From the NCBI GenBank assembly GCA_017434855.1, contig JAFRUA010000059.1, positions 1-42,344 of the forward strand: a DNA stretch of 42,344 nucleotides, written 5' to 3'. This document shows positions 20,766 to 34,660 of this stretch, piece after piece (position 1 is the first letter of the stretch; each line of letters opens with the position of its first letter). The position numbers and the translations under genes were made by a program. Under the pieces are notes generated by a model that searched no databases, was not told the origin of the DNA, and saw only the letters and a program-made list of their open reading frames with translations. Origin of the DNA: Clostridia bacterium. Its GTDB lineage: Bacteria; Bacillota; Clostridia; Oscillospirales; Acutalibacteraceae.

Positions 20766-20805
20766 GGTCGGGATGATATGATAAAGCAATCATATCATCC
20801 CGACC
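20766..20805. terminator. Strong bidirectional terminator
   Basis: Perfect 17-bp stem (20766-20782 with 20789-20805, loop AAAGCA). Plus side is followed by GTACTTTTT, minus side by TTTTTATG. It ends the pilus operon on the minus strand. Confidence 0.85.
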
Positions 20806-20865: not shown

Positions 20866-23800
20866 TCAGGCTTCTATCCCGTAACGCTTTTTCTTAACGA
20901 TCCGCAGCGCGATAAAGGATGTGCCGACGCCTGCGACAAGCAGGGCAACGAAAGAAGGAAGCAGTCGCACACCGAAGACGCCCGTATTCACATATTCGCA
21001 TTGGTTTTCCGCCTCAATTCTGCGGCTGGAAGTTGAAATATCAGCAGCGGTCAACATAAAGCCATCCGGCGCATTGGGCGGAGCGAGTTCATTTTCGCTG
21101 AACCAGAAATAGAAGGGCTGGGGATTCTCCGGAAGAATATATCCAACAGGCGCTGCCGTTTCCATAATACAGTAGGCCATGTCCTTTGCGTATATTCTTG
21201 TTCCGTTGTCGTATTCATCAGTCACTTTTATAATGATTCTGCCGATGTTGTCAGTGGTATATGTTTTTCCGGTCGAGACCCATGCGTTGCTTTGGGCGTC
21301 CCAGAAATATACAGTGAACACGGCCCCTGCCAGCGGTCTTCCGTCTTCCTGATCTATTTTTATGAGACAGAATTCCTCAAACGTCGATTCGCCGGACGTC
21401 TGGAAATCTTCAACTTCAATATGGGTATCATCGTGGTCGGATTCCTCTCCGTGCCCTTCCAGCGTTGCGGAGTTGGCAAGCGTGATTCCGCTATCCATGG
21501 AGCAGTTGACATGATAAATGTATGTCAGCCGCAAATGCGTTTCGTCGGGAACGCTCATTTCGATGATCGCATTTTTTATATTGGGATCAACGGAATCATT
21601 TTCAGTATGGGCGGTCCACTGGATATTTGAAAGCGGGGTCCAAACGCCGTTTTCTTCTTTTTCCAGAACGACGGAGTTCAGGCTGAGAACGACCTCACCG
21701 GTACCTGTTCCCTGTCTTGCCGTATAAGAAAGCACGTCGGTAAACGTCAGCCAATCAGGATCAATCGTACCGCCGGCGCTTGTCAGAAGGTTTTCGGCAA
21801 GCGGGTTGATGTCGATCGAATAGGTGATCAAATGAGAATCCTTGTCCCAACTGCCCACCTTATTGACAATATCTTCTGTTTTTGTTGCGTCGATATTGAT
21901 TTGGTTTTCTGCCTGACCGTAGTCTTGACCGTCCGCCTCAACACTGACCGTGTTGTTGAGTGCAAGGTGGACCGTGCCGTTTTGGGGCCATGCATCCTCG
22001 GCGAGCTGACAGTAATAAATCACGTTAAACGTATCGTTGAACAAGGAGGACCCGTTCGCGGGATTGGCCGGCTCCAGCGTAATGTCAACCAACTGCCTGC
22101 CGTCGGCTGTGGTCGAAACTTCACCGGATGCGATCGTTCTGGTGGCCCAAAGATTACCGACCTCTCCGGAAATCGTACCGTCGGCGGCGATTGTCAGGTT
22201 GTTGTTCGTGTTTTCCATGGAGTAATTCCATGTGGTCAGGGGAGAAGGGATCACCTTGACGCCGAGCAGCTCAACGCCCTCCGGAAGTGTGTCGGTGACG
22301 CGATACTCCTGCAGCCCGGGCACCGGCGTGACCTGCGCGATCCAAACGAAGGTTTTGTCCTCGTCATCATAATCAAGCGAAATCGTGGTGGGTTCTTCGG
22401 TAAAGATCGTTGACCAGTCACTGATTTTTCTGGCATTCAGTTTCTTGACGTTCGGGCTGATGACGTTGCTGATCGGAAGGGTCTTTTCACCATCAGAAAA
22501 CGTATTGATAAATGACTCTGAATGCTTACCGCTCATATCACCGGTGGTTTGGTACTGCCAGGTGATCACATCCACATCGCCGTTATCCATCAGATATCCG
22601 TTGCCTGCGGTGCCGACCGTGAAGGTGTAGCCGGTGATGTAGTTGTCCGTGTAGATCGGTGTGACGGACACATTGGGCCCCCATGCGGTCCCGAGCGCTG
22701 CAACCAGTGCGTTATACTGCGCCTGTGTCATATAATGCCCTTCGGGACTCAGCGTGTCGGAAAAAGACGTGCCGGACAGAATGCCTTCGACAGGGATCTC
22801 AACACGGACTGTCCAGTTCATCCCGTGCAGGTCGTTGCCGAGACTTTCGTCACCGTCCGAGGTTTTGTCAAAATCGCCGCCATGAACAACGACGTCATAG
22901 GATACGCTGTCACCGTCGAATTCTGCGTCATTGTGCACGCTCGTGGTCTCGCCGTACGCGACGTCCGGATGCGTGTAGTAGGTGATATGGTAAGTGTTGT
23001 TGTTGGGCGTGCTGCCGTCTGCCGGCAAAAAGCGAATGCCGATGATCGCTCCGCTGCCGTCGTAAACGTATTCGTAATCAACGCCGAGAACCGCATCTGC
23101 CCATCCCTTTTGCACCACAATGCCGTTGGTGCCGTTGATCGTTTCGTTTTGCGCATCTGCAAAGCTGTCGTCATAGACGACTTTTCCGGCAATATCGCTT
23201 TCACGGGCGTTTACGGAAATATGCCACTGAACATATTCTTCGTAAGGAATGCCGTCTTTCGCAAGCTTTTTGCGCTGCTGATTGTAAATGAAATAGTCTG
23301 CGTAATCCGTGGTTGTATCATGGTTGTCGGTCGAGGTGGCTTCAAGCGTGTTATATGCCGAAACGCCTGCGTCCTCGTCCGTCAGGCCGGTGAGCGCGTA
23401 TTCATAAACAAGCGTATAATACTCATGCTCGTCAAGCTGCGGCAGATTGAGCTCGATTTCATAGGTGTTCTGCGCGATGGCAGAGATATGTCCCTGCGAG
23501 GGGATTTCGGATGTTTCAACGGTTCCGTCCGCATTGTGCTTGACGACCGAAATCGATGTCGGCGGGCTGGTCGTTCCTTCGCCCGAATACGTAAAGGTAT
23601 CCATAAGATCAATGGAGGACGGCGTTCCGTTGACAGAACTGACAGTGACCTCATACCGAAATTTTCCGTCCGCCGTGTAGGAACCTGTTTTCTGCGCCGT
23701 AATATCATAATTCTCATTGATCTCTTCGGGCGGGATAAACAGCGATTGGATGTCGGTAAAGGTGACGTCCAATCCGTCATGGCTGGCATCGCCACTCGAT

Positions 23801-24714
23801 CTGATGAAACATCTGCAGCGCAAAACGTTGTTGATAAACTCGGTTTCGCTTGTAACCGCATCCTGCACAAAATCATCATCGTAAATGATTTCAATTCTGC
23901 AGCTTCCGTTGCCCAGAGGTATGAAATTGTATGTGAACGCCACTTCAAGCTCCGGGTAGCTGTCCAGCAGGTATGCATAGTATGGGCCGCCGTTGGTAAG
24001 CTCCTCGGGGATGATTATTTCATCCGGGAGATCAAATATGAACTTATACCCGCTATCTGTTACCTCTTCAATGTACTGCGTATCGATTCTGAAATGGAGC
24101 TCAAGTGTTGTCTGATAAAGATTCTCTTCAACCTTTGTCGTTCCGGAACCGGAAATGTCCGTGATGTAATCGTCAAGCGGAACGTCTGCTTCCGGCGCCG
24201 ACCGCTGCGGTCTGCCGGATCTTGCGGGCGCTTTTGCAGGCGCTTTTGTTGCTGATTCATGTTTGCTGTCGCTCCAGGCGGATGCCGATATTGCCTCTGC
24301 GTAATAAGAAGGCATCGCATCGGAAAGGGCCGGCAGGTCTTTATCGACCTCGCTGCCGGTGCTTTCTTCGGTTTCGTCGGAAGGGGCCGGCGGGTCTTCA
24401 TCGACCTCGCTGCCGGTGCTTTCTTCGGCTTCGTCGGAAGGGGCCGGCGGGTCTTCATCGACCTCGCTGCCGGTGCTTTCTTCGGTTTCGTCGGAAGGGG
24501 CCGACGGATCTTCAATGACCGCATTGCTTACGCTTTCTTCGATCCCATCGGTGTTTTCAGCACGGGCATAGATGATCGCGATGCCGATTGTTCCGATTTG
24601 CCAAAAGCTGAGCAACAAAACGGTCACCAAAAAAAGGCATAGGGCTTTCATGGCTCTTTGCCTGTTTTTATCTTTATTCAATTTTTTGCTGTAATCAAAT
24701 AAAGATCCGTTCAT
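20866..24714 (-). CDS. Large sortase-anchored surface protein (pilus tip/adhesin candidate)
   Basis: 1282 residues, last gene of the pilus cluster. The N-terminus has a basic stretch and signal segment (about 22-52). Residues 68-132 are three imperfect 19-residue acidic Ser/Pro/Glu repeats, a stalk-like region. Several ~150-residue beta-rich domains follow, resembling isopeptide-forming fimbrial modules. A SpaA/Cna_B-type prealbumin-like domain near 1130-1230 has the LIKID lysine and CIMETAAPVGY glutamate expected for an isopeptide bond. The C-terminus is a sorting signal: YVNTG, hydrophobic stretch, then VKKKR. No canonical LPXTG and no obvious thioester Cys-Gln domain. By position and size it would be the tip or ancillary adhesin, like Cpa in streptococcal FCT loci. 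GGAAAG is ~12 bp upstream of the start. Confidence 0.82.
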   Translation of the reverse strand: MNGSLFDYSKKLNKDKNRQRAMKALCLFLVTVLLLSFWQIGTIGIAIIYARAENTDGIEESVSNAVIEDPSAPSDETEESTGSEVDEDPPAPSDEAEESTGSEVDEDPPAPSDETEESTGSEVDKDLPALSDAMPSYYAEAISASAWSDSKHESATKAPAKAPARSGRPQRSAPEADVPLDDYITDISGSGTTKVEENLYQTTLELHFRIDTQYIEEVTDSGYKFIFDLPDEIIIPEELTNGGPYYAYLLDSYPELEVAFTYNFIPLGNGSCRIEIIYDDDFVQDAVTSETEFINNVLRCRCFIRSSGDASHDGLDVTFTDIQSLFIPPEEINENYDITAQKTGSYTADGKFRYEVTVSSVNGTPSSIDLMDTFTYSGEGTTSPPTSISVVKHNADGTVETSEIPSQGHISAIAQNTYEIELNLPQLDEHEYYTLVYEYALTGLTDEDAGVSAYNTLEATSTDNHDTTTDYADYFIYNQQRKKLAKDGIPYEEYVQWHISVNARESDIAGKVVYDDSFADAQNETINGTNGIVVQKGWADAVLGVDYEYVYDGSGAIIGIRFLPADGSTPNNNTYHITYYTHPDVAYGETTSVHNDAEFDGDSVSYDVVVHGGDFDKTSDGDESLGNDLHGMNWTVRVEIPVEGILSGTSFSDTLSPEGHYMTQAQYNALVAALGTAWGPNVSVTPIYTDNYITGYTFTVGTAGNGYLMDNGDVDVITWQYQTTGDMSGKHSESFINTFSDGEKTLPISNVISPNVKKLNARKISDWSTIFTEEPTTISLDYDDEDKTFVWIAQVTPVPGLQEYRVTDTLPEGVELLGVKVIPSPLTTWNYSMENTNNNLTIAADGTISGEVGNLWATRTIASGEVSTTADGRQLVDITLEPANPANGSSLFNDTFNVIYYCQLAEDAWPQNGTVHLALNNTVSVEADGQDYGQAENQINIDATKTEDIVNKVGSWDKDSHLITYSIDINPLAENLLTSAGGTIDPDWLTFTDVLSYTARQGTGTGEVVLSLNSVVLEKEENGVWTPLSNIQWTAHTENDSVDPNIKNAIIEMSVPDETHLRLTYIYHVNCSMDSGITLANSATLEGHGEESDHDDTHIEVEDFQTSGESTFEEFCLIKIDQEDGRPLAGAVFTVYFWDAQSNAWVSTGKTYTTDNIGRIIIKVTDEYDNGTRIYAKDMAYCIMETAAPVGYILPENPQPFYFWFSENELAPPNAPDGFMLTAADISTSSRRIEAENQCEYVNTGVFGVRLLPSFVALLVAGVGTSFIALRIVKKKRYGIEA
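24319..24513 (-). repeat. Tandem 57-bp coding repeats in the adhesin gene
   Basis: About three and a half in-frame copies of a 57-bp unit encoding SDEAEESTGSEVDEDPPAP-like sequence; the two central copies are almost identical at DNA level. Copy number could change by slippage without breaking the frame. Confidence 0.85.
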
Positions 24715-24828
24715 CTGCTGCCTGCACTTTCCTTTGGAATGATTGGCTCGGGTCGGTCGCTTGCGCCTCTTTTTGATCTCGAAAGGCGCCGTCGAAAGCG
24801 GCTGACGGCGGCGCGCTCGCCTGAAAGG

Positions 24829-25461
24829 TTATTCTTTTCTGATCAGTCTGTTGGTGTTCAGCGTATACAGCAGCGCAAGACAGAACAGGCCGAAGGAGGA
24901 CGCGATGGCGATCAGTATATATTGGGTCAGATGCGATTCATCGCCGGTCCTTGGGGTGCCGGACGGTTTTTTGGGCTCGGTTGTGTTCGGCGTGGTTGGC
25001 GTGGTCGGCGTGGTCGGCGTATCGGATGGCTGCGTTGTTGTGGTGGGTTCCGGCGTTTTATCAAACCGGACCTGATCCTCTTTTTCCGCTGTGCGGTTGC
25101 TGTTGATGGTGGAAACCGTGTATAACGAGCCGTCCTCGCGCGCATAAACGTCCACGGTCAGGCGGAATGTCTCGTCCGCCGGGCGGGGCTGTCCGTCTTC
25201 GGAAAACGCGGCGCTGATCGTATAGTGGTATCTGCCCGGCTCGGTGAAATTGATATAAAAACGTCCGGTTCTGCCGTTATCCACCTGGATGGTGCCTTGC
25301 GTCGGCAGCGGACTGTTGACTTCGGGAATCATGGTTGCCGTTCCGCCGCCGTCAATGACCACGGGGATCACTGCGCTGGCTTCTTCGGCCGCAAGCGCGA
25401 TCCCGGTGAACGGGAACAGCAAGAGCAATAAGCTCAAACTCAGTAAAAGAACTTTTCGCAT
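24829..25461 (-). CDS. Small sortase-anchored pilin (FctB-like basal subunit candidate)
   Basis: 210 residues: signal peptide (1-25), one compact beta domain (about 45-115) with FTEPGRYHYTISAAF, the same FTEPGxYxY block as in the major pilin, then a Thr/Pro-rich stalk (about 135-165), sorting motif TPRTG, a hydrophobic helix and RLIRKE. This layout matches FctB-type anchor pilins, which link the pilus base to peptidoglycan. It lies 16 bp after the sortase gene and 114 bp before the large adhesin. GAGGAG is upstream of ATG 25461. Role as basal subunit is inferred from size, proline-rich tail and position. Confidence 0.75.
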   Translation of the reverse strand: MRKVLLLSLSLLLLLFPFTGIALAAEEASAVIPVVIDGGGTATMIPEVNSPLPTQGTIQVDNGRTGRFYINFTEPGRYHYTISAAFSEDGQPRPADETFRLTVDVYAREDGSLYTVSTINSNRTAEKEDQVRFDKTPEPTTTTQPSDTPTTPTTPTTPNTTEPKKPSGTPRTGDESHLTQYILIAIASSFGLFCLALLYTLNTNRLIRKE

Positions 25462-25477
25462 AAATAAAACAATCTCC

Positions 25478-26191
25478 TCAGGAACTCTCTTGCATCACGC
25501 CGAATACGACCATACGGTCGATGGTGTCGGCGGACTGACATGTGGAAAGCGCGATCAGTTTCAGATCGCCTTCTGTCTCCGGCGGTTCATAGATGATTGC
25601 GGATTTGGACAGCTCTTCAATCAAAGCGTCCGGCGTCGCGTCCTCCGGTCGGAACACGAGCTGGTCTGTGGCCTGCGCCATTGTGGCGGCAAAGAAACGG
25701 ATTTTGTAGAGCTTTCCGCCCACGGTGATCAACTGGCCCGTTCGGTGAGAATCAAAGTATTCTCTTTTTTTGAAATTGTCCAGCGCCCCGAACATGGTGC
25801 CGTATTCCATGTGGTGCCCGTACAGCAGGGAATAGCTGTCGGAAAAATCGCGGCTGTTGCGGTAGTCAAGAAAAATACTGCCGGACAGCGTATATTTGCC
25901 AAACGGGTCTTTGTTCAGGTATTCTTTGTTGTCGGCGCCCTGCATGACCGGATAGTCGATTTTGGTGTCGTCCACCGTGATCCACGCAATGGCGTTTTCA
26001 GAGATCTCGCGCAGAATCTCGGGGTTGGTCAGGTCGGGCTTGTATTTCAGAATGCTTCGGTCGTTTGCGTTGTAATAAACCATGGCTGCGTCATACATGG
26101 CATAAAAGCAGACAAGGAAGAAGAGAAGCGATGCCAGGAGAATGATCCTGTCAAAGCATTTGTCAAAAAATATGATCACTTTCCTGTTCAT
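25478..26191 (-). CDS. Class B sortase, pilus-type
   Basis: 237 residues with one N-terminal membrane helix (about 14-40). Catalytic residues are in order: H126 in YGHHMEYGTMF, C218 in IALSTCQSA, R226 in TIDRMVVF. Motif spacing and length fit class B sortases. Lying directly between the major pilin and the small anchor pilin, it is in the position of SrtC/SrtC2 in Streptococcus pyogenes FCT loci, where a class B enzyme polymerises FctA. AGGAGGAAGAG precedes the start. The second position after the catalytic His is His rather than the more usual Asn. Confidence 0.88.
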   Translation of the reverse strand: MNRKVIIFFDKCFDRIILLASLLFFLVCFYAMYDAAMVYYNANDRSILKYKPDLTNPEILREISENAIAWITVDDTKIDYPVMQGADNKEYLNKDPFGKYTLSGSIFLDYRNSRDFSDSYSLLYGHHMEYGTMFGALDNFKKREYFDSHRTGQLITVGGKLYKIRFFAATMAQATDQLVFRPEDATPDALIEELSKSAIIYEPPETEGDLKLIALSTCQSADTIDRMVVFGVMQESS

Positions 26192-26235
26192 CGCGATTCT
26201 CTTCCTCCTGCAGTCTTAAGAGTCTGATTCGCACT

Positions 26236-26269
26236 GAATCAGAGGGACGAGAACTCATCCCTCTGATTC
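26236..26269 (-). terminator. Intercistronic hairpin between major pilin and sortase
   Basis: Perfect 12-bp stem GAATCAGAGGGA / TCCCTCTGATTC (26236-26247 with 26258-26269), 10-nt loop, no T-run on the minus strand. It probably reduces or processes transcription past the pilin gene. Confidence 0.6.
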
Positions 26270-26293
26270 ATCATCCTCTTCTTCTTGATTCCT

Positions 26294-27445
26294 TCAATAA
26301 GCGACTCTTCTGCGCTTGCTGATCACGAACAGCATGACAGCGCCGAACAGAAGCAGGCCGATTGCGAACGGAGCGACCGTGATGATCACGCCGGTCGGAA
26401 TGATACCGTTGTGGGTATTGGTGAAACCGGTCTTGATGTCGGTGGTGACACCTGCAGTGCTCGCGACAGGATCGGTGAAATCATTATCAGTACCATCGTT
26501 GTCAACACCATCCGTGGACGTATAATCCTGGGCATCTTCACTCAAGGTGTACTGATATCCTTTGGAAAGGTCTTTCACTCTCACAATGTCGCCGTCAGTG
26601 AGTTCAAAGGTTCCGGTGTAGGTGCCGTCAGATGCAACCGTGATCATACCATTTGTAACACCGCTGCCATCAACGATGACGTCAGTGCCGTTGACAACTT
26701 CAATTGCATAGTCACCGGGGATAGCGTCAGTGATAGAAAGTGTAAATACGAACTTCTTGGTATTGTCAGCCTGGTTGCCTTCAATTTTCTTGGAGAACTC
26801 AAGGTCAACGGTTTCGTATGTGTTGGTGAAGGTGACTTGTTTGACGTCGGGATCCTGATTCGCATAGTTGTAAGGATCGCCCGGATAGTAGGGGGTATCG
26901 TCAACGTTGTCGTTCGGGTTTCTCATCGCATAGCCGATAATTTCAAGCGCGCCGTCCACGTTTTCAACGAACACATCTACATAACGGGTCGAATAGGTAT
27001 CGTTCGTGATACTGCCATGGTAAGCGGTGGTCGGCTGCTCGGTGAGCACATAACGATAGATGCCGGGCTCGGTGAAGGTTACGCTGCTGAAATCCATTAC
27101 GACGGTATCAGTCGCAAACTTTTTGCTGGTGTCCGTGGAATCCGTCGGTGTACCGGCGGTCGTTCCGTTTTCGGTCATGTCGTTGGTGAACACAGCGTTT
27201 TCGACCGTGGGGCTGCCGATACCGGCATTGACCGAAAGGGTGGTGCTGGTGCCCGGAACAGCTTCGCCCGGTGTGAGCGTGAATTCAAACTCAACATTGG
27301 GGACCTGAGCGCTGCTGTCAACGACAAGATTCTTGTTGAAAGACGTCGATGTTACACTTTCTGCGGATGCGGAGATTGCGGCAAACGACATGACGAGTGC
27401 GAGCGCCATGAGGACTGCCAAGACTTTGCTGATGTTTCTTTTCAT
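26294..27445 (-). CDS. FctA-like major pilin
   Basis: 383 residues with an ideal AAGGAGGT ribosome site and the shortest, cleanest signal peptide of the cluster (1-28, ending SASA). Domain 1 (about 30-190) is a Spy0128/FctA-type pilin domain with FTEPGIYRYVLTEQ and YSTRYVDVFVEN; domain 2 (about 195-335) contains the FSKKIEG strand lysines and TYTGTFELTDGD, resembling a DUF7601/Cna-like module. The sorting signal is IIPTGV, a hydrophobic stretch, then KRRR, close to the EVPTG of streptococcal FctA rather than LPXTG. Both lysine-rich strands could supply intramolecular isopeptide bonds and the intermolecular linkage. Acts as the polymerised shaft subunit, by homology. Confidence 0.85.
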   Translation of the reverse strand: MKRNISKVLAVLMALALVMSFAAISASAESVTSTSFNKNLVVDSSAQVPNVEFEFTLTPGEAVPGTSTTLSVNAGIGSPTVENAVFTNDMTENGTTAGTPTDSTDTSKKFATDTVVMDFSSVTFTEPGIYRYVLTEQPTTAYHGSITNDTYSTRYVDVFVENVDGALEIIGYAMRNPNDNVDDTPYYPGDPYNYANQDPDVKQVTFTNTYETVDLEFSKKIEGNQADNTKKFVFTLSITDAIPGDYAIEVVNGTDVIVDGSGVTNGMITVASDGTYTGTFELTDGDIVRVKDLSKGYQYTLSEDAQDYTSTDGVDNDGTDNDFTDPVASTAGVTTDIKTGFTNTHNGIIPTGVIITVAPFAIGLLLFGAVMLFVISKRRRVAY

Positions 27446-27480
27446 ACTTTTACCTCCTTAATGAAAAGAATTTTTTATGT

Positions 27481-27497
27481 ATGCAAAGTGATTGCAT
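27481..27497 (-). promoter_or_regulatory. Palindrome upstream of the major pilin gene
   Basis: ATGCAA-AGTGA-TTGCAT, a perfect 6-5-6 inverted repeat 36 bp before the fctA-like start. It may be an operator or a small leader hairpin; nothing else in 27446-27546 looks like a strong promoter. Confidence 0.35.
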
Positions 27498-27546
27498 CTG
27501 AAGTGAATGGGTGCCGAAACATCAAACCGATGCTCGGACTTCGGGT

Positions 27547-28266
27547 TTAGAAATTCCTGCGCCGGACGGTAAACAGCATTGGCCCCATGAGGTCTTTTCT
27601 GTCGACCGTGCCGAACGTGCGGCTGTCGTTGATGTCCTGACGAAAGTCGTTCAGAATGAACACCTTCCCCGGCTCCACGGTGTAAGGAAAGGTGACGGGG
27701 GAATTCTCTGCCTGATAGGTGGCGTAAAAGACCTCTTCCGCCGGAGAAACGCCGTTGACGGTCAGCGAACCGTTTTCAGAGATATCAACGACGCTGCCCT
27801 CCAGCGCGATCACCCTGCCGACTTCGGTCTTTCCGTTGACGCGATACAGCACCACGGCATTGATGAAAGGCTTTTGCAGCCGAAAGCTGACGGTCAGATC
27901 GCCGTCGTTCACCGCCGGGTACATGTTGTTGCCGTAATGCACGGACAGACCGAGCACAAAAGTAAACACCACCCAGATCAGTACAGCGACGACTGCGATT
28001 TTGATCAGCAAACCGATCAAAATCTGCTTTGTTGTTTTGGGCGGTACTTTTTTGGGTGGACCTTTCTTTGACGGCTCCTTCTTGGAAGGCGCTTTTTTAG
28101 AAGGTGATTTTTCAGAAGATGTTTTCTCAGACGGCGCATCATTCTCCTGCGCCGCGGTTTCTGTCTGCTTCGATTCGGGCGCGGGAACAGACGCGGCGCT
28201 TTGAGGGCTGGCAATCAGCTCGTTCGTATCCAGCTGTTCAATTTCAAACTGCTCGAAATCCTGCAA
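27547..28266 (-). CDS. SipA-like signal-peptidase homologue lacking the catalytic dyad
   Basis: 239 residues from TTG 28266, preceded at 8 bp by GGGGG; an in-frame TTG at 28308 has no ribosome site and overlaps the leader. A ~80-residue cytoplasmic region with PSKK-type Lys/Pro repeats precedes one membrane helix (about 84-108). The extracellular part follows S26 signal peptidase I, but the catalytic Ser position is N114 (GNNMYP) and the Lys position is G150 (VGRVIALEGS). Streptococcal SipA proteins also lack this dyad and act as chaperones for FctA polymerisation. Location directly before the FctA-like gene fits that role. The preceding promoter carries the palindromic operator shared with the regulator gene. 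Confidence 0.83.
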   Translation of the reverse strand: MQDFEQFEIEQLDTNELIASPQSAASVPAPESKQTETAAQENDAPSEKTSSEKSPSKKAPSKKEPSKKGPPKKVPPKTTKQILIGLLIKIAVVAVLIWVVFTFVLGLSVHYGNNMYPAVNDGDLTVSFRLQKPFINAVVLYRVNGKTEVGRVIALEGSVVDISENGSLTVNGVSPAEEVFYATYQAENSPVTFPYTVEPGKVFILNDFRQDINDSRTFGTVDRKDLMGPMLFTVRRRNF

Positions 28267-28317
28267 GATAAGCGCCCCCTTTGAATATGAGTGCCGTAAA
28301 GCCGACAAGATAAATAT

Positions 28318-28367
28318 ATTTTACACAAGTAATATGAAGGTGTCAAGGGAAAGTTCCGGATTGGAAC
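28318..28367 (-). promoter_or_regulatory. Main pilus-operon promoter with palindromic operator
   Basis: Minus strand: operator GTTCC-N5-GGAAC (28367-28353; extended GGTTCC at 28368), 6-bp gap, consensus -35 TTGACA (28346-28341), 17-bp spacer, -10 TAAAAT (28323-28318). The operator plus -35 region matches 31367-31394 with the same spacing. Position just upstream of -35 suggests activation. Confidence 0.8.
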
Positions 28368-28516
28368 CTGTGAATTTTCACGAATATTCGCCACGAATCC
28401 TTCTTCTTTTTGTTGCCTTTTGCAGACTAAATGATTGTTCGATTTTGGCATTTGAATCCCCAGTTCTTATTTGCAAAACAGAATAAAAACAGGGGGTTCG
28501 TTGCTATTCAGTGTTC

Positions 28517-29284
28517 TCACTCGGTGTCTACCCGATACGCCGCCACGACGAATCGGCCGTCCTTGGTGTGGTAGCTGCAGGTGGATAAAAACAAAAGCTG
28601 CGCGGGATACCGCGGCGCATCCGCCAGATTGATGATCGACATGGAGCGGATATTCGCCACCGTGTCAAAATACGTCGGTTCATCCAGCGCGCCGATCCGT
28701 TCATAGTATTTGAAAACATTGGCGTTCGCGGCATAAATCTTGGTCTGGAACGCGGCAAACACCCTGTATCGTCGGTTTTCCGTCGGCGTACCGATGCGGA
28801 TCAGCCGGTGCTTCAGCGCATAGTCCGGGTCGGCGTACCGATCCAGCTCGCCGAACATGGTGTCCGTATCCATATTGTGCCCGTAGATGATGAAGGAATC
28901 GGAATCCAGATTGCAGCCGCCGCCGATGAACAGGCACCCGGCGAACGAGTATTTTTTATCGAAGCCTCTTCTGAGATAATACTCCGGATCGTCCTCCGAC
29001 GTTTTCATCACGGGGTAATCGATGGAGGTGTCCGGAATCTTCAGCCAGCAGGCAAAGTCTCCGTTCTTATCCATCACGGACTTGTAACGGTTCACAAAGG
29101 CGTCCGAAGGCGCATCCCATTCCTCGGGGGGAAGCTCCTCCCGCAGTTTGGCGAAGCTGTTCTGTTCCCGCCGCTGCAGCAAATAGATGCGCAGCGCATG
29201 GAAGGAAGAGAACGCAAACACCGCGATCAGGATTGCGACCGGGATCCAATACAACCAGGCGATTCTTTTTTTCTTTTGACGCAT
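28517..29284 (-). CDS. Second class B sortase
   Basis: 255 residues with an N-terminal membrane helix (about 9-33). Catalytic set: H136 in IIYGHNMDTDTMFGEL, C236 in LFLSTCSYHT, R244 in DGRFVVAAY. It is only distantly similar to the sortase at 25478-26191, so the two probably have different jobs, for example anchoring of the finished pilus versus shaft polymerisation. It has its own consensus promoter and GAAAGGAG ribosome site, and sits between the sensor kinase and the sipA-like gene. An imperfect 14-bp hairpin (about 28480-28510) follows the stop. Confidence 0.88.
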   Translation of the reverse strand: MRQKKKRIAWLYWIPVAILIAVFAFSSFHALRIYLLQRREQNSFAKLREELPPEEWDAPSDAFVNRYKSVMDKNGDFACWLKIPDTSIDYPVMKTSEDDPEYYLRRGFDKKYSFAGCLFIGGGCNLDSDSFIIYGHNMDTDTMFGELDRYADPDYALKHRLIRIGTPTENRRYRVFAAFQTKIYAANANVFKYYERIGALDEPTYFDTVANIRSMSIINLADAPRYPAQLLFLSTCSYHTKDGRFVVAAYRVDTE

Positions 29285-29326
29285 CGGGCCGCTCCTTTCA
29301 GATAATCGTCAACGATGGATCGTTTT

Positions 29327-29355
29327 ATTATATGGCTTTTTCACATTTGTGTCAA
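29327..29355 (-). promoter_or_regulatory. Consensus promoter of the second sortase gene
   Basis: Minus strand: -35 TTGACA (29355-29350), 17-bp spacer, -10 TATAAT (29332-29327). Both hexamers are perfect. The GGTTCC-N5-GGAACC operator is absent here, so this gene is probably constitutive. Confidence 0.8.
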
Positions 29356-29375
29356 CAGTTTGCGTACGAAGCGGT

Positions 29376-30692
29376 TCATTCGATTCGTTCTTTTACGTCA
29401 CGTTTTTTCAAGGGGATCGTGACCTTTACCACGGTGCCGCCGCCGTCGCGCGGGGTGATCGTCAGTTCGCCGTCGCACATCATCTGCAGGCGCTGACGAA
29501 TGTTGGAAAGCGCGATGTGCGGTTCGCTGCTGTCGGATGAAAGATCAAAATCCGCGCCGTTGTTTTCTACGGTGATCTCGCAGCCGGCGTTGGTCTCGCG
29601 GGTGCGGATGCTGATGCACAGCGGCCCGGAATAGGGGTTCATGCCGTGCTTGACGGCGTTTTCCACAATGGGCTGCAGCGTCAGCGGCGGCAGACGGAAA
29701 TGGAGAAGCGGCGTATCGTAATCCACGGCAAGCATGTCCTCATACTGTGCCTGTTCCACAGCAAGATAGGCGCGGGTATGCTCCAATTCCGCAGTGAACG
29801 GAATGGTGCTGTCGCTGGCGACGGCGTTGAAATTTTTGCGCAGATAGTTGGTGAAATCCAGCGTGACCTGCCGCGCCTTCTGCGGGTCAAGATTGCACAG
29901 ACTGTAGATGCTCATCAGGGTATTATAGATGAAGTGGGGCCGCATCTGCAGCACCATGACGCTGGCGCGCTCATGGGCGATCTCCCGTTGCTGCCGGGCA
30001 ATCTCCCGCTGCTGATGCAGATCCCGTTCGATCTGGTCAAGCAGAACGAAGCCGTACATGGCCAGAGCGGAGACAACGATGCTGATGTCAATAAGCGGAA
30101 AGATGTCGATGAACACCTGGATACACAACGTGACCGTCTCCGGAACCATGGCAACAAGGAGGATGAGAAAGGCTTTTCGTGAAAGTTGTGCGCGGCGTTT
30201 GATCACGCCCGCAAGATTCAGCAGCAGGATCACGATCACCGGCACCAGCTGAAGCGGATACAGCGGCCCGCGGGAATAATTCATGTCCGGCGTGATGGTG
30301 GTGAATCCGTCGGTGAACAAAGCGCATACAAGAATGACCAGATAGACGCCCCAGATCGAAAGTACGGCGCGAAGGAGCTTGCTTTCGCGGATGCTTTCTT
30401 TGCAGCAGTGCAGCAGAAAAAACGTCAGCATGGGGAGCGGCACCGAAAGCAGCAGAGATTCCAGAAACAGTGTGCAGAGCAGCGCCTGGATGGAAGCGGG
30501 ATAATAATTGAAGATGAATTCGCCGAGGGTGGAAATGCAGCACAGCATAAGAACGATAAAATAGCTCACGAAAAAGCGCTTGTTCCACCGCTCCATACTG
30601 TGGATGGCGGCGGATAAAAACAGCCCCACCACGCTTAACAACAGCGCCGCGCCAAACAGCGAGATATATAGGAAATCGATCACACTGTTCAT
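29376..30692 (-). CDS. LytS/YehU-type sensor histidine kinase
   Basis: 438 residues from ATG 30692, which overlaps the regulator stop as ATGA and has GGGGAGG upstream. About seven membrane helices (residues ~5-220) lead into a short coiled coil (~222-248, HQQREIARQQREIAHER) and a His_kinase domain with LQMRPHFIYNTL (phosphoacceptor H253), followed by a GHKL ATPase domain with NAVKHG and LSNIRQRL. Translationally coupled to the XRE-receiver regulator, so the two form an atypical two-component system at the head of the pilus locus. Signal unknown; the multi-helix sensor resembles those detecting envelope or metabolite cues. Confidence 0.88.
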   Translation of the reverse strand: MNSVIDFLYISLFGAALLLSVVGLFLSAAIHSMERWNKRFFVSYFIVLMLCCISTLGEFIFNYYPASIQALLCTLFLESLLLSVPLPMLTFFLLHCCKESIRESKLLRAVLSIWGVYLVILVCALFTDGFTTITPDMNYSRGPLYPLQLVPVIVILLLNLAGVIKRRAQLSRKAFLILLVAMVPETVTLCIQVFIDIFPLIDISIVVSALAMYGFVLLDQIERDLHQQREIARQQREIAHERASVMVLQMRPHFIYNTLMSIYSLCNLDPQKARQVTLDFTNYLRKNFNAVASDSTIPFTAELEHTRAYLAVEQAQYEDMLAVDYDTPLLHFRLPPLTLQPIVENAVKHGMNPYSGPLCISIRTRETNAGCEITVENNGADFDLSSDSSEPHIALSNIRQRLQMMCDGELTITPRDGGGTVVKVTIPLKKRDVKERIE

Positions 30693-31291
30693 GTATCCGC
30701 ACCTCCCCAAAACGGGTATCGCAGCTTCGTGAGCTGGTTGCGAACGCTCTGTGTGGTCAGCGGTTTGACCATGAATCCGCAGGCCCCGGTATTCCATGCA
30801 TCGAGCGAATAGTCCGGGTAGGCGGTCAGAAAGACCACGTTGGTGTGCGGATTGATTTCGAGCAGCGTTTGGCACAGGTCAAAACCGCTGGCCGTTCCCA
30901 GCTCGATGTCCAGAATGGCCAGGGCAACCCGGTTCGTCTTTGCGTACTCGATCGCCTCCTGCGGCCAGATGAAGCCCGTGATCGTGGCGTTCGGCACAAC
31001 AGCCTCCAGAACGGGCAGACTGTCCGATAAAATCACCTTGCTGTCGTCCACGATGATAATATTCGGCGCTTCGTCGCTTTGGGTCGCGGCGGTCAAAAGC
31101 TTGTTGACGTCTGCGCCGAGCGCCTTGGAAATGCGGGTGATCATCGTCGCATCCGGCAAGCGAAGGCCGCTTTCCCAGCGCGTGACCGTGGAACGGGTCA
31201 CGATCAGGCGTTCCGCCAACTCGTGCTGCGAAAGGCCCTTTTCCTGCCGCAGTGTTTTCAGAGTTTCCGCAAACAGCGTGTTCATATTCAT
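30689..31291 (-). CDS. XRE helix-turn-helix / receiver fusion regulator
   Basis: 200 residues. Residues 5-65 are an XRE/Cro-type helix-turn-helix (LRQEKGLSQHELAERL, then TRSTVTRWESG). Residues 76-190 are a receiver domain with acidic pocket D82/D83, phosphoacceptor D128 (in LAILDIELG), T156 and K176. This is the reverse of the normal receiver-then-DNA-binding order. The gene is followed by its kinase with a 4-bp overlap. A palindrome GGTTCC-N5-GGAACC lies 76 bp upstream and again before the sipA-like operon, the type of site an XRE dimer would bind. Probably the pilus regulator. The ribosome site AGGAGG is just before ATG 31291; an alternative ATG lies two codons in. Confidence 0.88.
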   Translation of the reverse strand: MNMNTLFAETLKTLRQEKGLSQHELAERLIVTRSTVTRWESGLRLPDATMITRISKALGADVNKLLTAATQSDEAPNIIIVDDSKVILSDSLPVLEAVVPNATITGFIWPQEAIEYAKTNRVALAILDIELGTASGFDLCQTLLEINPHTNVVFLTAYPDYSLDAWNTGACGFMVKPLTTQSVRNQLTKLRYPFWGGADT

Positions 31292-31366: not shown

Positions 31367-31394
31367 GGTTCCATTCTGGAACCTCCCCTTGAAA
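31367..31394 (+). promoter_or_regulatory. Palindromic operator plus -35, second copy
   Basis: Perfect 6-5-6 palindrome GGTTCC-ATTCT-GGAACC (31367-31383), then TCCCC and TTGAAA (31389-31394). Aligned with the sipA promoter, operator and -35 keep the same spacing, but here the -35 faces rightward, away from the regulator. A -10 17 bp later (TAATCG) is poor. The remaining part of 31292-31597 holds two other promoters and a possible 20-codon frame after an AAAGGGGGCG ribosome-like site (31431-31440). Confidence 0.65.
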
Positions 31395-31523
31395 ATGAAA
31401 CTTTTATGCGTTAATCGAATGAAACTGCAAAAAGGGGGCGTCTTCTGTTATCGAAGAAAACATTCGTGCGCAAACCTTTGAGCCATGCGTTCAACTTTAA
31501 CCGATAACGGTTCCATTTGCACA

Positions 31524-31571
31524 TTGCAATTTGTCAAAAAATATGCTATAATTTTTGCAATGAAACATTGC
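31524..31571 (+). promoter_or_regulatory. Promoter and operator of the GH106-like gene
   Basis: -35 TTGCAA (31524-31529), 17-bp spacer, -10 TATAAT (31547-31552). A perfect palindrome GCAATG-AAA-CATTGC (31557-31571) covers the expected transcription start, a likely repressor site. Confidence 0.7.
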
Positions 31572-31597
31572 GCAACTTTCATAAAGGCGGTGACCTT

Positions 31598-34500
31598 ATG
31601 CTGTATAAAAAGAACCAATCTCCGACATTGCCGACCCCGCTGTTTCAAAATCCGACAGCCGAATACCGCGGCACTCCTTTCTGGGCGTGGAATGATCTGC
31701 TGACCAAAAGCGAACTGGAACGCCAGATCGACGTGTTCCGCGACATGGGGCTCGGTGGCTTTCATATGCATGTGCGCACGGGGCTGAAAAACCAATATCT
31801 CAGCGATGCGTATATGGCGCTTGTGAAAGCCTGCGTGGACAAAGCGAAAGAAAACAAGATGCTCGCGTGGCTGTATGATGAGGACCGCTGGCCCTCCGGC
31901 GCGGCCGGCGGCATGGTGACAAAAGATCCGCGCTTTCGCGCCCGTGCGCTGTATTTCACCAACGATGCAGCGGATGCATCCTGCCTGTCCGGCGATGACC
32001 GGCTGCTCGCGTGCTACGACGTGTCGCTGCGCGCAGACGGCACGCTGAAAGACTACCGTCGGATTGCGCCGGACGACAAAGCAGACGGAAACAAATGGTT
32101 TGCCCTGCTGCGCATCATGACGCCGTCTTCGTGGTACAACGGCCAGACCTATGCCGACACGCTCAACAAAGAAGCGATCGAGCAGTTCATCAAGGTCACG
32201 CACGAGCGGTATAAAGAGACCGTTGGCGACGCATTCGGCGGCACGGTGCCGGCCATCTTCACCGACGAGCCGCAGTTCACGCGAAAAACAACCCTCGACC
32301 ACAGCAATCCGCAGAGCGCCACCTGGGTGCGCCTGCCGTGGACGGACAAGGTTCCCGACCTTTACAAAGCAGCCTGCGGTGAGGATCTGCTCGCGTCGCT
32401 GCCGGAACTGTTCTGGGAACTGCCGGACGGAAAAATCAGCGTTACCCGCTACCATTATCACGATTTCATCGCAGAGCTGTTCGCGCAAAGCTTTGCCGAC
32501 ACCGTCGGCGGCTGGTGCAAACAAAACGGCATTGCGCTCACCGGCCACATGATGGAAGAACCCACGCTGACCAGTCAGAGCGCGGCCTTGGGCGAAGCGA
32601 TGCGCTCCTACCGTTCGTTCGGTCTTCCGGGCATCGACATGCTGTGCAACGCCCACGAATTCACCACCGCCAAGCAGGCGCAGTCCGCCGCACATCAGTT
32701 TGGCTGCGAGGGTGTGCTGTCCGAACTCTATGGCGTGACAAGCTGGGACGCGGATTTCCGACTGTATAAGCATCAGGGCGACTGGCAGGCCGCGCTGGGC
32801 GTTACGGTGCGTGTGCCGCATCTGTCGTGGTATTCCATGCAGGGCGAAGCCAAACGGGACTACCCGGCCTCAATCAGCTATCAATCGCCGTGGTACAGGC
32901 AGTGGCATCTGGTCGAAGATCACTTTGCACGGGTCAATACCGCCATGACGCGCGGCAAGCCCAAGGTCAACCTTGCCGTGATCCATCCCGTGGAATCGTT
33001 CTGGCTGCACTGGGGCCCCAACGACAAGACCGCCGTCATCCGCGACGATATGAACGAACGGTTCATGAACCTGACACAGTGGTTGCTTGAGGGCACGATC
33101 GACTTTGATTTTGTCAGCGAATCGCTGCTTCCGCAGCTGTGCGCAGCCGGCGCCGCGCCGCTCAAAGTGGGTCAGATGCAGTATGACACCGTCCTCGTCC
33201 CGGCGTGCGAAACCCTGCGTTCTTCCACGCTCGAACGGCTTGAAGCATTTCAAAAAGCCGGCGGTCGCCTGATCTTTCTCGGCACTGCCCCAACGCTTGA
33301 AAACGCCGTGCCGTCCGGCCGCGGCAAGGCGCTGTTTGACCGAAGCGAACAGGTGCCGTTTGCCCGCGCCGCTGTGCTCGATGCGCTTGACGACACGCGA
33401 TTTGTCTCTATGCGCAACAAAAACGGCGAGCTGACGGACGAATTCCTCTATCAGCTGCGCACCGACACCGATGGCGACTGGCTGTTCATCGCGCACACGA
33501 AAGAGCCGGACAACAAAGATCTCAGCTCGCGCAAAGACGTGATTTTGACGTGCAGGGGAGAATATGCGCCCACGGTTTATGACACGGCAACCGGCGAGAT
33601 CTATCCCGTCGGTGCGGATTACCGGAGCGGCAATACCGTCATCAAAACGACGCTGCACGGTTACAACTCACTGCTTTTGAAGCTCACACCGGGCAAAGCG
33701 CAATTCCCTGCCGCGTTCGACGATACAAAGTACCGCATTGCGCAGGTCATTCCCGCACCGAAAGCATTCAAACGCACAGAGCCGAACGTGCTGCTGCTTG
33801 ACATGGCGGAATACGCCGTTGACGGCGGCGACTTCCAAGACGCGGAGGAGATCCTGCGGCTCGACAACCGGGTGCGGCGTGCGCTCGATCTGCCGGAACG
33901 CGGCGGACATGTCGTGCAGCCCTACATCATCGGGAACAAACCGCCGGTGCACACGATCACGCTGCGGTTCGAGATTGACAGCGAGATCGACGCTGCAGAC
34001 GCATATCTGGCACTGGAAGACGCCGACGTTTCGGTCATTACGCTCAACGGCGAACCGGTGAAAAACGTCGCCGACGGCAATTTTGCGGATATCGCGATCC
34101 AAAAAGTGCCGCTGCCCGGAATCCGCAAGGGCAAAAACATCCTCACCGTTACGCAGCCGTTTGGCGAGCGGACGAACACCGAGGCAATGTATCTGCTCGG
34201 CGATTTCGGCGTGCGTGTGGTCGGCGCAAAAAAAACGATCGTCAAAGAGACGGCGTCGCTGCAGTTCGGCGATCTTGCGGCGCAGGGTTATCCGTTTTAC
34301 GGCGGCGCGATGGAATATACCTTCGACGCCACGGCCAAAAACGGCAGCATCCGCCTGCGCGCATCGCTCTATCGCGGCGGTCTTTTGAAGGTCAGCTGCG
34401 ACGGCAAAGACGTCGGCGCGATCATCTATCCACCCTACACGCTGCAGATCGACGGCCTTTCCGACGGCCTGCACACCATCACACTGACTTCGTATCTCCA

Positions 34501-34660
34501 CCGCTACAACACGTTCGGCCCGGTGCACGTCGTCAACGAACACTGCCCGTGGTACGGCCCGGATTCCTGGCGCACCGATGACGAGGACTGGAGCTATCAG
34601 TATCATCTGCGTCAGACAGGCGTGCTCAAGTCGCCCGAGATCCTGGAAAAAGACGATTGA
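31598..34660 (+). CDS. Large intracellular glycoside hydrolase, GH106-like (putative alpha-L-rhamnosidase)
   Basis: 1020 residues from ATG 31598 (AAAGGCGG upstream; earlier in-frame codons lie in the promoter). No signal peptide. The N-terminal half looks like a TIM-barrel glycosidase: FWAWNDLLTKSELERQI, LYDEDRWPSGAAGG, FTDEPQFT, LTGHMMEEPTLTSQ and VLSELYGVTSWD, several of which end strands with acidic residues. The C-terminal ~250 residues are beta-sandwich, like GH2/GH106 sugar-binding domains. I favour the GH106-like group that contains rhamnosidases, consistent with the GH78 enzyme and symporter at 11.6-15.7 kb, but the family call is from pattern memory and another large GH family is possible. 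Confidence 0.6.
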   Translation: MLYKKNQSPTLPTPLFQNPTAEYRGTPFWAWNDLLTKSELERQIDVFRDMGLGGFHMHVRTGLKNQYLSDAYMALVKACVDKAKENKMLAWLYDEDRWPSGAAGGMVTKDPRFRARALYFTNDAADASCLSGDDRLLACYDVSLRADGTLKDYRRIAPDDKADGNKWFALLRIMTPSSWYNGQTYADTLNKEAIEQFIKVTHERYKETVGDAFGGTVPAIFTDEPQFTRKTTLDHSNPQSATWVRLPWTDKVPDLYKAACGEDLLASLPELFWELPDGKISVTRYHYHDFIAELFAQSFADTVGGWCKQNGIALTGHMMEEPTLTSQSAALGEAMRSYRSFGLPGIDMLCNAHEFTTAKQAQSAAHQFGCEGVLSELYGVTSWDADFRLYKHQGDWQAALGVTVRVPHLSWYSMQGEAKRDYPASISYQSPWYRQWHLVEDHFARVNTAMTRGKPKVNLAVIHPVESFWLHWGPNDKTAVIRDDMNERFMNLTQWLLEGTIDFDFVSESLLPQLCAAGAAPLKVGQMQYDTVLVPACETLRSSTLERLEAFQKAGGRLIFLGTAPTLENAVPSGRGKALFDRSEQVPFARAAVLDALDDTRFVSMRNKNGELTDEFLYQLRTDTDGDWLFIAHTKEPDNKDLSSRKDVILTCRGEYAPTVYDTATGEIYPVGADYRSGNTVIKTTLHGYNSLLLKLTPGKAQFPAAFDDTKYRIAQVIPAPKAFKRTEPNVLLLDMAEYAVDGGDFQDAEEILRLDNRVRRALDLPERGGHVVQPYIIGNKPPVHTITLRFEIDSEIDAADAYLALEDADVSVITLNGEPVKNVADGNFADIAIQKVPLPGIRKGKNILTVTQPFGERTNTEAMYLLGDFGVRVVGAKKTIVKETASLQFGDLAAQGYPFYGGAMEYTFDATAKNGSIRLRASLYRGGLLKVSCDGKDVGAIIYPPYTLQIDGLSDGLHTITLTSYLHRYNTFGPVHVVNEHCPWYGPDSWRTDDEDWSYQYHLRQTGVLKSPEILEKDD

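Follow-up and report, generated by a model that had tools for sequence, protein, structure and literature searches.

The pilus locus and its proteins

The DNA examined here is a contig of 42,344 nucleotides from a Clostridia bacterium (JAFRUA010000059.1; the window in what follows). Between positions 31291 and 20866, eight genes lie head to tail on its minus strand, which gene content, order, homology and folds make a well-supported FCT-type pilus locus. From 5' to 3', they encode an XRE-receiver (XRE-REC) response regulator of 200 amino acids (aa) (30689-31291), a LytS-type membrane histidine kinase (29376-30692), a class B sortase of the anchoring type by profile (sortase 1; 28517-29284), a SipA-like pseudo-signal peptidase (27547-28308), a major pilin with an FctA fold (26294-27445), a class B sortase of the pilus-polymerase type (sortase 2; 25478-26191), an FctB-like basal pilin (24829-25461) and a 1282-aa surface protein (20866-24714). 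An earlier reading made from the letters alone (the sequence-only reading) had named the same eight genes in one direction, and this holds: all eight open reading frames (ORFs) lie where it had placed them, and searches with Pfam/NCBIfam models, by which gene families were called, return the same names. The possibility of a decayed locus was rejected, since all eight frames are open and the sortases retain their His, Cys and Arg.

On the coding strand, two promoter-like sequences stand out, one upstream of sortase 1 (TTGACA-N17-TATAAT, 12/12; 29327-29355) and one for the sipA operon (TTGACA-N17-TAAAAT, 11/12; 28318-28346), while the remaining sites of the promoter scan score at most 9/12 on this strand; overall, the scan returned 15 sites compared with 8.8 in shuffled sequences. 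Because these two sites stand out, sipA, the pilin gene, sortase 2, fctB and the 1282-aa gene probably form a single transcript. A terminator-like minus-strand hairpin of 17 pairs with a T-rich tail lies 3' of the last gene (20766-20805).

The major pilin was compared with the Protein Data Bank (PDB) using a profile of 59 of the 67 listed pilins (300-480 aa, ≥150 bits). The T-antigens of Streptococcus pyogenes come first, with 8f70 (T18.1 pilin) at an E value of 7.7e-52 and Spy0128 (3b2m) at 5e-32. PitB of the S. pneumoniae/S. oralis PI-2 pilus (PitB, PitA) appears in both the profile and the fold lists, as a weaker match than Spy0128 (4s3l, 3.9e-17 versus 5e-32). The AlphaFold model of the pilin (mean pLDDT 87.1, pTM 0.78) has Spy0128 as its first Foldseek match (E 1.1e-18; TM 0.69 by target length, 0.52 by query length), which bears out the structural check against Spy0128 that the sequence-only reading had proposed. 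Across the 59 aligned pilins, ten columns are invariant, with E136, N208, K202, T351 and G352 among them, and conservation of ≥90% is seen at K38, K219, E303, N343 and P350. In the alignment with 3b2m, K38/E136/N208 and K219/E303/N343 fall on the isopeptide residues of the two Spy0128 domains; Spy0128 E117 and N168 are named in PDB titles among the fold matches. Both pilin domains are thereby predicted to hold a Lys/Glu/Asn set for an intramolecular isopeptide bond. K202 precedes N208 by six residues, and K161 of Spy0128 precedes N168 by seven. According to an excerpt of PMC7900414, K161 is the polymerising lysine of Spy0128, and we take K202 as the putative acceptor lysine for polymerisation.

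The sorting signals vary among the three surface proteins, being IIPTG in the pilin, TPRTG in the small pilin and YVNTG in the large protein; those of the two pilins were also picked up by a motif script. Built from 39 of the 45 small pilins, a profile matches the FctB structures 8k6t (2.3e-20) and 3klq (9.4e-20), with the double-pilin chain 8f70 higher in sum (3.1e-24), and FctB structures are the first four matches of the fold search, as the proposed comparison of this protein with FctB had anticipated. The small pilin is thus an FctB-like basal pilin, with a proline-rich tail (a Pro/Thr-rich linker) and a sorting signal. The 1282-aa protein, a candidate tip or wall adhesin, ends in a SpaA (prealbumin-like) domain and its signal, and a PDB sequence search with it at E ≤0.1 gave no match. 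Near-identical tandem repeats of the type DPPAPSDETEESTGSEVDE stand close behind its signal region (24524-24340).

The two sortases give profile results that mirror each other. Sortase 2 scores 160.3 bits with TIGR03064, over the cut-off of 153.75, while sortase 1 stays under it at 108.1. The profile of sortase 2 is nearest to 3psq (1.7e-65), which we take to be Spy0129, and to 4y4q (1.1e-64), the other 13 listed structures starting from 4.8e-41; it is, as predicted from these matches, a pilus-specific, polymerase-type class B sortase. The profile of sortase 1 instead finds 1rz2 first (2e-38), an anchoring SrtB of a Bacillus, followed by structures labelled sortase B and NPQTN-specific sortase B, and ranks 3psq (7.9e-30) and 4y4q (1.9e-28) last of the 15 listed; this is most simply read as a predicted role in anchoring to the wall. 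A connection of sortase 1 with the FctB signal was considered by eye and dropped. In one relative (L038:5994-7721), the pilus-type class B sortase occupies a 575-aa frame, with a long C-terminal extension that includes a hydrophobic segment.

The family search places the SipA ORF in signal peptidase S26, and its profile finds 4n31, a SipA, at 3e-40 compared with 1.8e-14 for the best true signal peptidase. Its start is more likely the TTG at 28266, behind AAGGGGG. Asn and Gly occupy the positions where the catalytic Ser and Lys would be; a working signal peptidase was rejected for this loss of the dyad, and the protein is predicted to be a member of the signal-peptidase family lacking the Ser-Lys pair. 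Among 74 SipA-like ORFs from the window and loci L034-L123 (ORFs ≤80 bits excluded, L045 and L069 omitted, L034 and L036 holding identical stretches), the dyad lysine is kept in one and the serine in 30. The only ORF with both residues is a second signal peptidase of L044 (8846-9418), encoded between fctB and the adhesin gene. The absence of the catalytic lysine from the other 73 supports a SipA that acts without proteolysis, a question that is still debated in the field according to excerpts of PMC4049620 and PMC7900414. For S. pyogenes SipA, the former describes Asp and Gly at the dyad, no detectable peptidase activity and an essential part in polymerisation. The N-terminal, probably cytosolic part of the window's SipA (28266-27980) is a Lys/Pro/Ser-rich low-complexity stretch, which also occurs in the relative L034 and is not present in the 179-aa SipA of L036.

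Known pilus systems and relatives

The same four core families, by profile, make up the S. pyogenes FCT-2/3/4 loci (Cpa, SipA, FctA/Spy0128, class B SrtC/Spy0129, FctB), and the likeness of the pilin and FctB holds by fold too. It extends to a SipA without the Ser-Lys dyad and to a pilin that has a PTG signal and whose two domains are both of the isopeptide type. In FCT-2/3/4, the core genes likewise run sipA-pilin-class B sortase-fctB, as given in PMC4049620. Profiles, folds and core gene order thus support the FCT-type assignment made in the sequence-only reading. The locus differs in three respects: its adhesin gene comes last, as in many other relatives, rather than first; an anchoring-type class B sortase lies inside the locus, whereas S. 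pyogenes uses SrtA (in the excerpt of PMC7900414); and a two-component system takes the place of RofA/Nra/MsmR. An adhesin-like large gene ahead of sipA and the pilin gene, like cpa in S. pyogenes, was seen in L040, L041, L036 and L038.

The two-component system and the second class B sortase had been put forward as departures from the known type. Both are real, but as departures they have precedent in the same class: part of PMC8088525 describes a Clostridium perfringens VR-10B pilus, seen by immunoblot and immunogold, whose locus combines three pilins with a class B sortase, a signal peptidase and a two-component system and has a second sortase B gene as its neighbour. The VR-10B NE pilus thus matches the window in its class, in these pilus genes, in the presence of two-component genes within the locus and in a further sortase B close by; unlike in the window, this second sortase B gene lies upstream in the opposite orientation. 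The likeness is drawn from the published description rather than from sequence comparison, and no operator is described in that part of the source.

A scan of the genome contig collection with sortase 2 returned at least 584 relatives, of which the best 80 underlie the survey figures; 30 of these 80 loci have less than 4.5 kb before or less than 2.5 kb after the sortase. Close to it, 75 of the loci have a pilin, 66 have sipA and 70 have fctB; all three are present in 60, and 48 show the strict order sipA-pilin-sortase 2-fctB. Sortase 1 was found at 10 of the 80, seven times before sipA and three times after the adhesin gene. By record title, the surveyed relatives are mostly Clostridia, many from rumen or other gut, with a few others such as Sharpea and Anaerococcus. 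By these counts, the FCT-type pilus locus is not rare among the best 80 relatives, and it appears patchy within the window's own taxonomic order, where a pilin relative occurs in 16 of 394 genomes (own included), several of the matches being partial and in giant proteins. In the open-licence literature, no paper was found on FctA with Ruminococcus, or on a pilus and class B sortase with Lachnospiraceae. The known streptococcal machine would hereby be extended to uncultured Clostridia, many of them from rumen or other animal-gut samples, and since the pilus is widespread in the survey, the question moves from whether such Clostridia have pili to when they are made.

The sensor-regulator pair and two palindromic boxes

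The regulator carries an HTH_3 (helix-turn-helix, HTH) domain at its front and Response_reg behind, the reverse of the usual domain order. The kinase has His_kinase (PF06580) and HATPase_c domains plus a sub-threshold 7TM match, and most likely starts at the ATG at 30692, giving 438 aa instead of the 499 aa of the longest ORF (to 30875), because this ATG overlaps the regulator stop as ATGA. D128, a candidate acceptor Asp whose role is read from its position, is invariant in five of five XRE-REC proteins. The two proteins are predicted to form a two-component system, in which the kinase has the His_kinase and ATPase domains and the receiver the acceptor Asp. They share the LytS-type kinase with LytS/LytTR-type systems, and the receiver weakly matches LytR-like regulators; the DNA-binding part differs, being an N-terminal XRE HTH, and the Pfam/NCBIfam search found no LytTR domain in the regulator.

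In only one of the 80 surveyed loci, L044, was the pair found adjoining the pilus, so the pair was rejected as a general feature of such pili; 30 of the 80 have the short flanks given above, the receiver model would miss distant types, and L087 has a lone receiver protein and L056 a weak one. With a strict search, the regulator was found in 8 of the 394 genomes of the order (own included, 9 genes), and three further full-length copies were found in 59 relatives (partial matches excluded). The XRE-REC genes examined number 13 (window, L044, L141-L143, L165-L172), leaving aside a contig-edge fragment of genome G019 (L144). A LytS-type kinase follows the regulator gene in all 13, and in eight loci a secreted or surface gene adjoins the pair. 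These neighbours comprise FCT-type pili (window, L044), a class C Spa-type pilus (L171, with a SpaH/EbpB pilin and a class C sortase both over cut-offs), giant proteins of at least 2.3-3 thousand aa (L141, L142, L143) and cut-off secreted-looking proteins (L168, L170).

Two palindromic boxes with the consensus GGTTCCN5GGAAC(C) are proposed as operators. Operator 1, a box of 17 bp (GGTTCCAGAATGGAACC in minus-strand reading; 31367-31383), stands 92 bp ahead of the regulator gene, with a TTGTCT-N17-TAAACT sequence following it after 32 bp, and operator 2 (GGTTCCAATCCGGAACT, likewise in minus-strand reading; 28352-28368) lies 5 bp upstream of the sipA -35 hexamer; the promoter-like sequence before sortase 1 has no box. 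At ≤1 mismatch, the window holds four strand matches in two places, compared with an average of 0.72 in 100 shuffled sequences, one of which reaches four. Genome-wide, GGTTCCN5GGAAC gives 11 strand matches versus one for the reversed pattern. The looser GTTCCN5GGAAC occurs at eight places, and promoter-like sequence follows only the window's two (11 and 8 of 12; the others at most 7). The other six places lie inside coding frames (two) or in repeat-like contexts (four, three of these clearly alike), and further regulon members were rejected, as these places are coding or repeat-like and lack a good promoter-like sequence. A GC-rich repeat in this genome carries GGTTCCC-N3-GGGAACC, perhaps as a REP-type element (contig 22 at 4972, contig 58 at 14108 and 14659; contexts 66-80% alike), with a weaker member on contig 44 at 813 (context 62-66% like it).

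Both boxes recur in L044 with the same 5-bp (sipA) and 32-bp (regulator) gaps and the same 17-bp spacer at sipA. The sipA upstream regions of the window and L044 agree in 93 of 202 columns, no closer than those of the window and L034 (92 of 197); the regulator upstream regions of the window and L044 are more alike (113 of 191). A box match of at least 10/12 was found in two of 69 sipA upstream regions (ORFs ≤120 bits or with <100 bp upstream excluded), both beside the pair, the next best being 9. The same threshold is reached upstream of eight of the 13 XRE-REC genes, 92-124 bp before the start, compared with 0.09 of 13 on average and three at most in 400 shuffled sets, a figure that overstates the certainty since related genes are non-independent. 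When 220-bp stretches are drawn at random from the same loci, boxes included, 1.9% of 3900 draws come up to this threshold. At ≥9/12, the count is 8 of 13 versus 0.98 on average in shuffles, and at ≥8/12 (12 of 13 versus 5.7) it is no longer telling. By eye, box look-alikes are present upstream of the regulators of L141, L142 and L172. Across 111 loci (1.51 Mb, partly overlapping), other occurrences of the palindrome were limited to L088, at some distance from sipA, and to the window copies L127 and L129.

A proposed switch and its alternatives

From the computed features (which genes are present and in what order, their homology to FCT parts and their folds, the loss of the dyad in SipA, the conserved residues of isopeptide type, and the boxes together with how these co-occur with the pair), we infer a mechanism that comprises polymerisation, binding, activation, a division of labour between the sortases and a signal. 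In this mechanism, the membrane kinase would sense a signal and phosphorylate the receiver Asp of the XRE-REC protein, whose HTH dimer would bind GGTTCCN5GGAACC, the palindrome lying close upstream of the -35 hexamer, and activate the operon sipA-pilin-sortase 2-fctB-adhesin, as well as its own gene via the second box. Partnered by SipA, which would act without proteolysis, sortase 2 would then link each pilin through the threonine of its IIPTG to the invariant Lys202 of the following one, FctB would end the fibre, and sortase 1, from its separate consensus promoter, would most likely fix the fibre to the wall. That the pair controls the pilus via a short DNA box at its promoter is very probable. 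For the whole, a covalent pilus locus of the FCT type (class B sortase and SipA) under its own switch and working as proposed, we estimate a probability of roughly 0.7.

Several observations weigh against this proposal. The search with PF12892 (FctA), suggested in the sequence-only reading as a check, turned out negative: it gave no match for the pilin at E ≤0.01 and 18.5 bits for the small pilin, under the cut-off of 22.1, with 0 matches in the window's own genome and likewise 0 in 14 control genomes, so that the identity of the pilin as FctA rests on profile and fold comparison. The YVNTG signal of the 1282-aa protein differs from the [IV]PTG type common in relatives. No pair adjoins the locus of L034/L045, the relative whose pilin and adhesin are the closest, so that the pair is dispensable for such a pilus, and five of the 13 XRE-REC loci (L165, L166, L167, L169, L172) have no adjoining surface gene. 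A good box is missing from five of the 13 genes (L141, L142, L166, L167, L172), and the eight places of the looser pattern in the 2.74-Mb genome compare with six for the reversed-pattern control, so that the number alone proves little and the case depends on position and on other genomes. Since the box was first spotted by eye in the window, fresh tests come only from L044 and the other loci. Finally, activation is read from the box position only, and XRE proteins are often repressors.

This common role of XRE regulators would fit a different switch on the same pilus, in which the unphosphorylated XRE-REC protein blocks the sipA promoter and its own gene until phosphorylation releases it; the sipA promoter hexamers are near consensus (11/12) and would need little activation. 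We nevertheless consider repression rather unlikely, because both boxes lie upstream of the -35 hexamers (5 and 32 bp) and not over the promoter, in both genomes. It is also conceivable that the pair is a chance neighbour with another target, such as the divergent rhamnosidase-like gene at 31517-34660 (PF17132), as box 1 lies within the gap to that gene too and the G019 pilus, with sortases and pilin 75-78% identical, lacks an adjoining pair. This appears improbable given that box 2 stands at the sipA promoter, that the other genome matches have no comparable promoter-like sequence and that L044 repeats both sites with a different divergent gene.

With respect to assembly, the proteins might be separately wall-anchored adhesins that form no polymer, a reading in line with adhesin and FctB signals unlike that of the pilin. 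It is made very improbable by the invariant Lys202, which lies near the place of Spy0128 K161, by a SipA accompanied by a class B sortase of the polymerase type, and by the similar VR-10B locus, for which a pilus was shown by experiment (PMC8088525). Sortase 1, in turn, could be a second polymerase or an enzyme adding the YVNTG protein at the tip, as its gene lies inside the locus and that signal is unlike the pilin's. However, 3psq and 4y4q are the last of the 15 solved structures that its profile finds, and four of the ten surveyed loci that have it carry [IV]PTG adhesins (L050, L054, L055, L059); compared with an anchoring enzyme, we regard this role as doubtful.

If the pair does act through the boxes, the proposed operator predicts a very small regulon centred on the window locus. 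We see an even chance for a wider reading, in which the XRE-REC/LytS pair serves Clostridia of this order as a movable cassette controlling surface structures: an inverted regulator with a conserved TGTTCCN5GGAACA-like operator would have come to govern assemblies unrelated to one another, from FCT-type pili of class B (window, L044) and a Spa-type pilus of class C (L171) to the giant surface proteins of L141, L142 and L143. In the open-licence literature, we recognised no description of such an arrangement, in which an XRE-REC regulator of reversed domain order has an operator of its own at the promoter of a pilus. The occurrence of this module next to a class C pilus suggests a single switch serving several types of surface fibre. 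The window's own genome has five sortase matches: the two described here, one class-B-like match on contig 67 and two in a Spa-like pilus locus on contig 29 (28800-34058), which also holds a signal-peptidase-like gene and a D2-type pilin ending in LPSTG.

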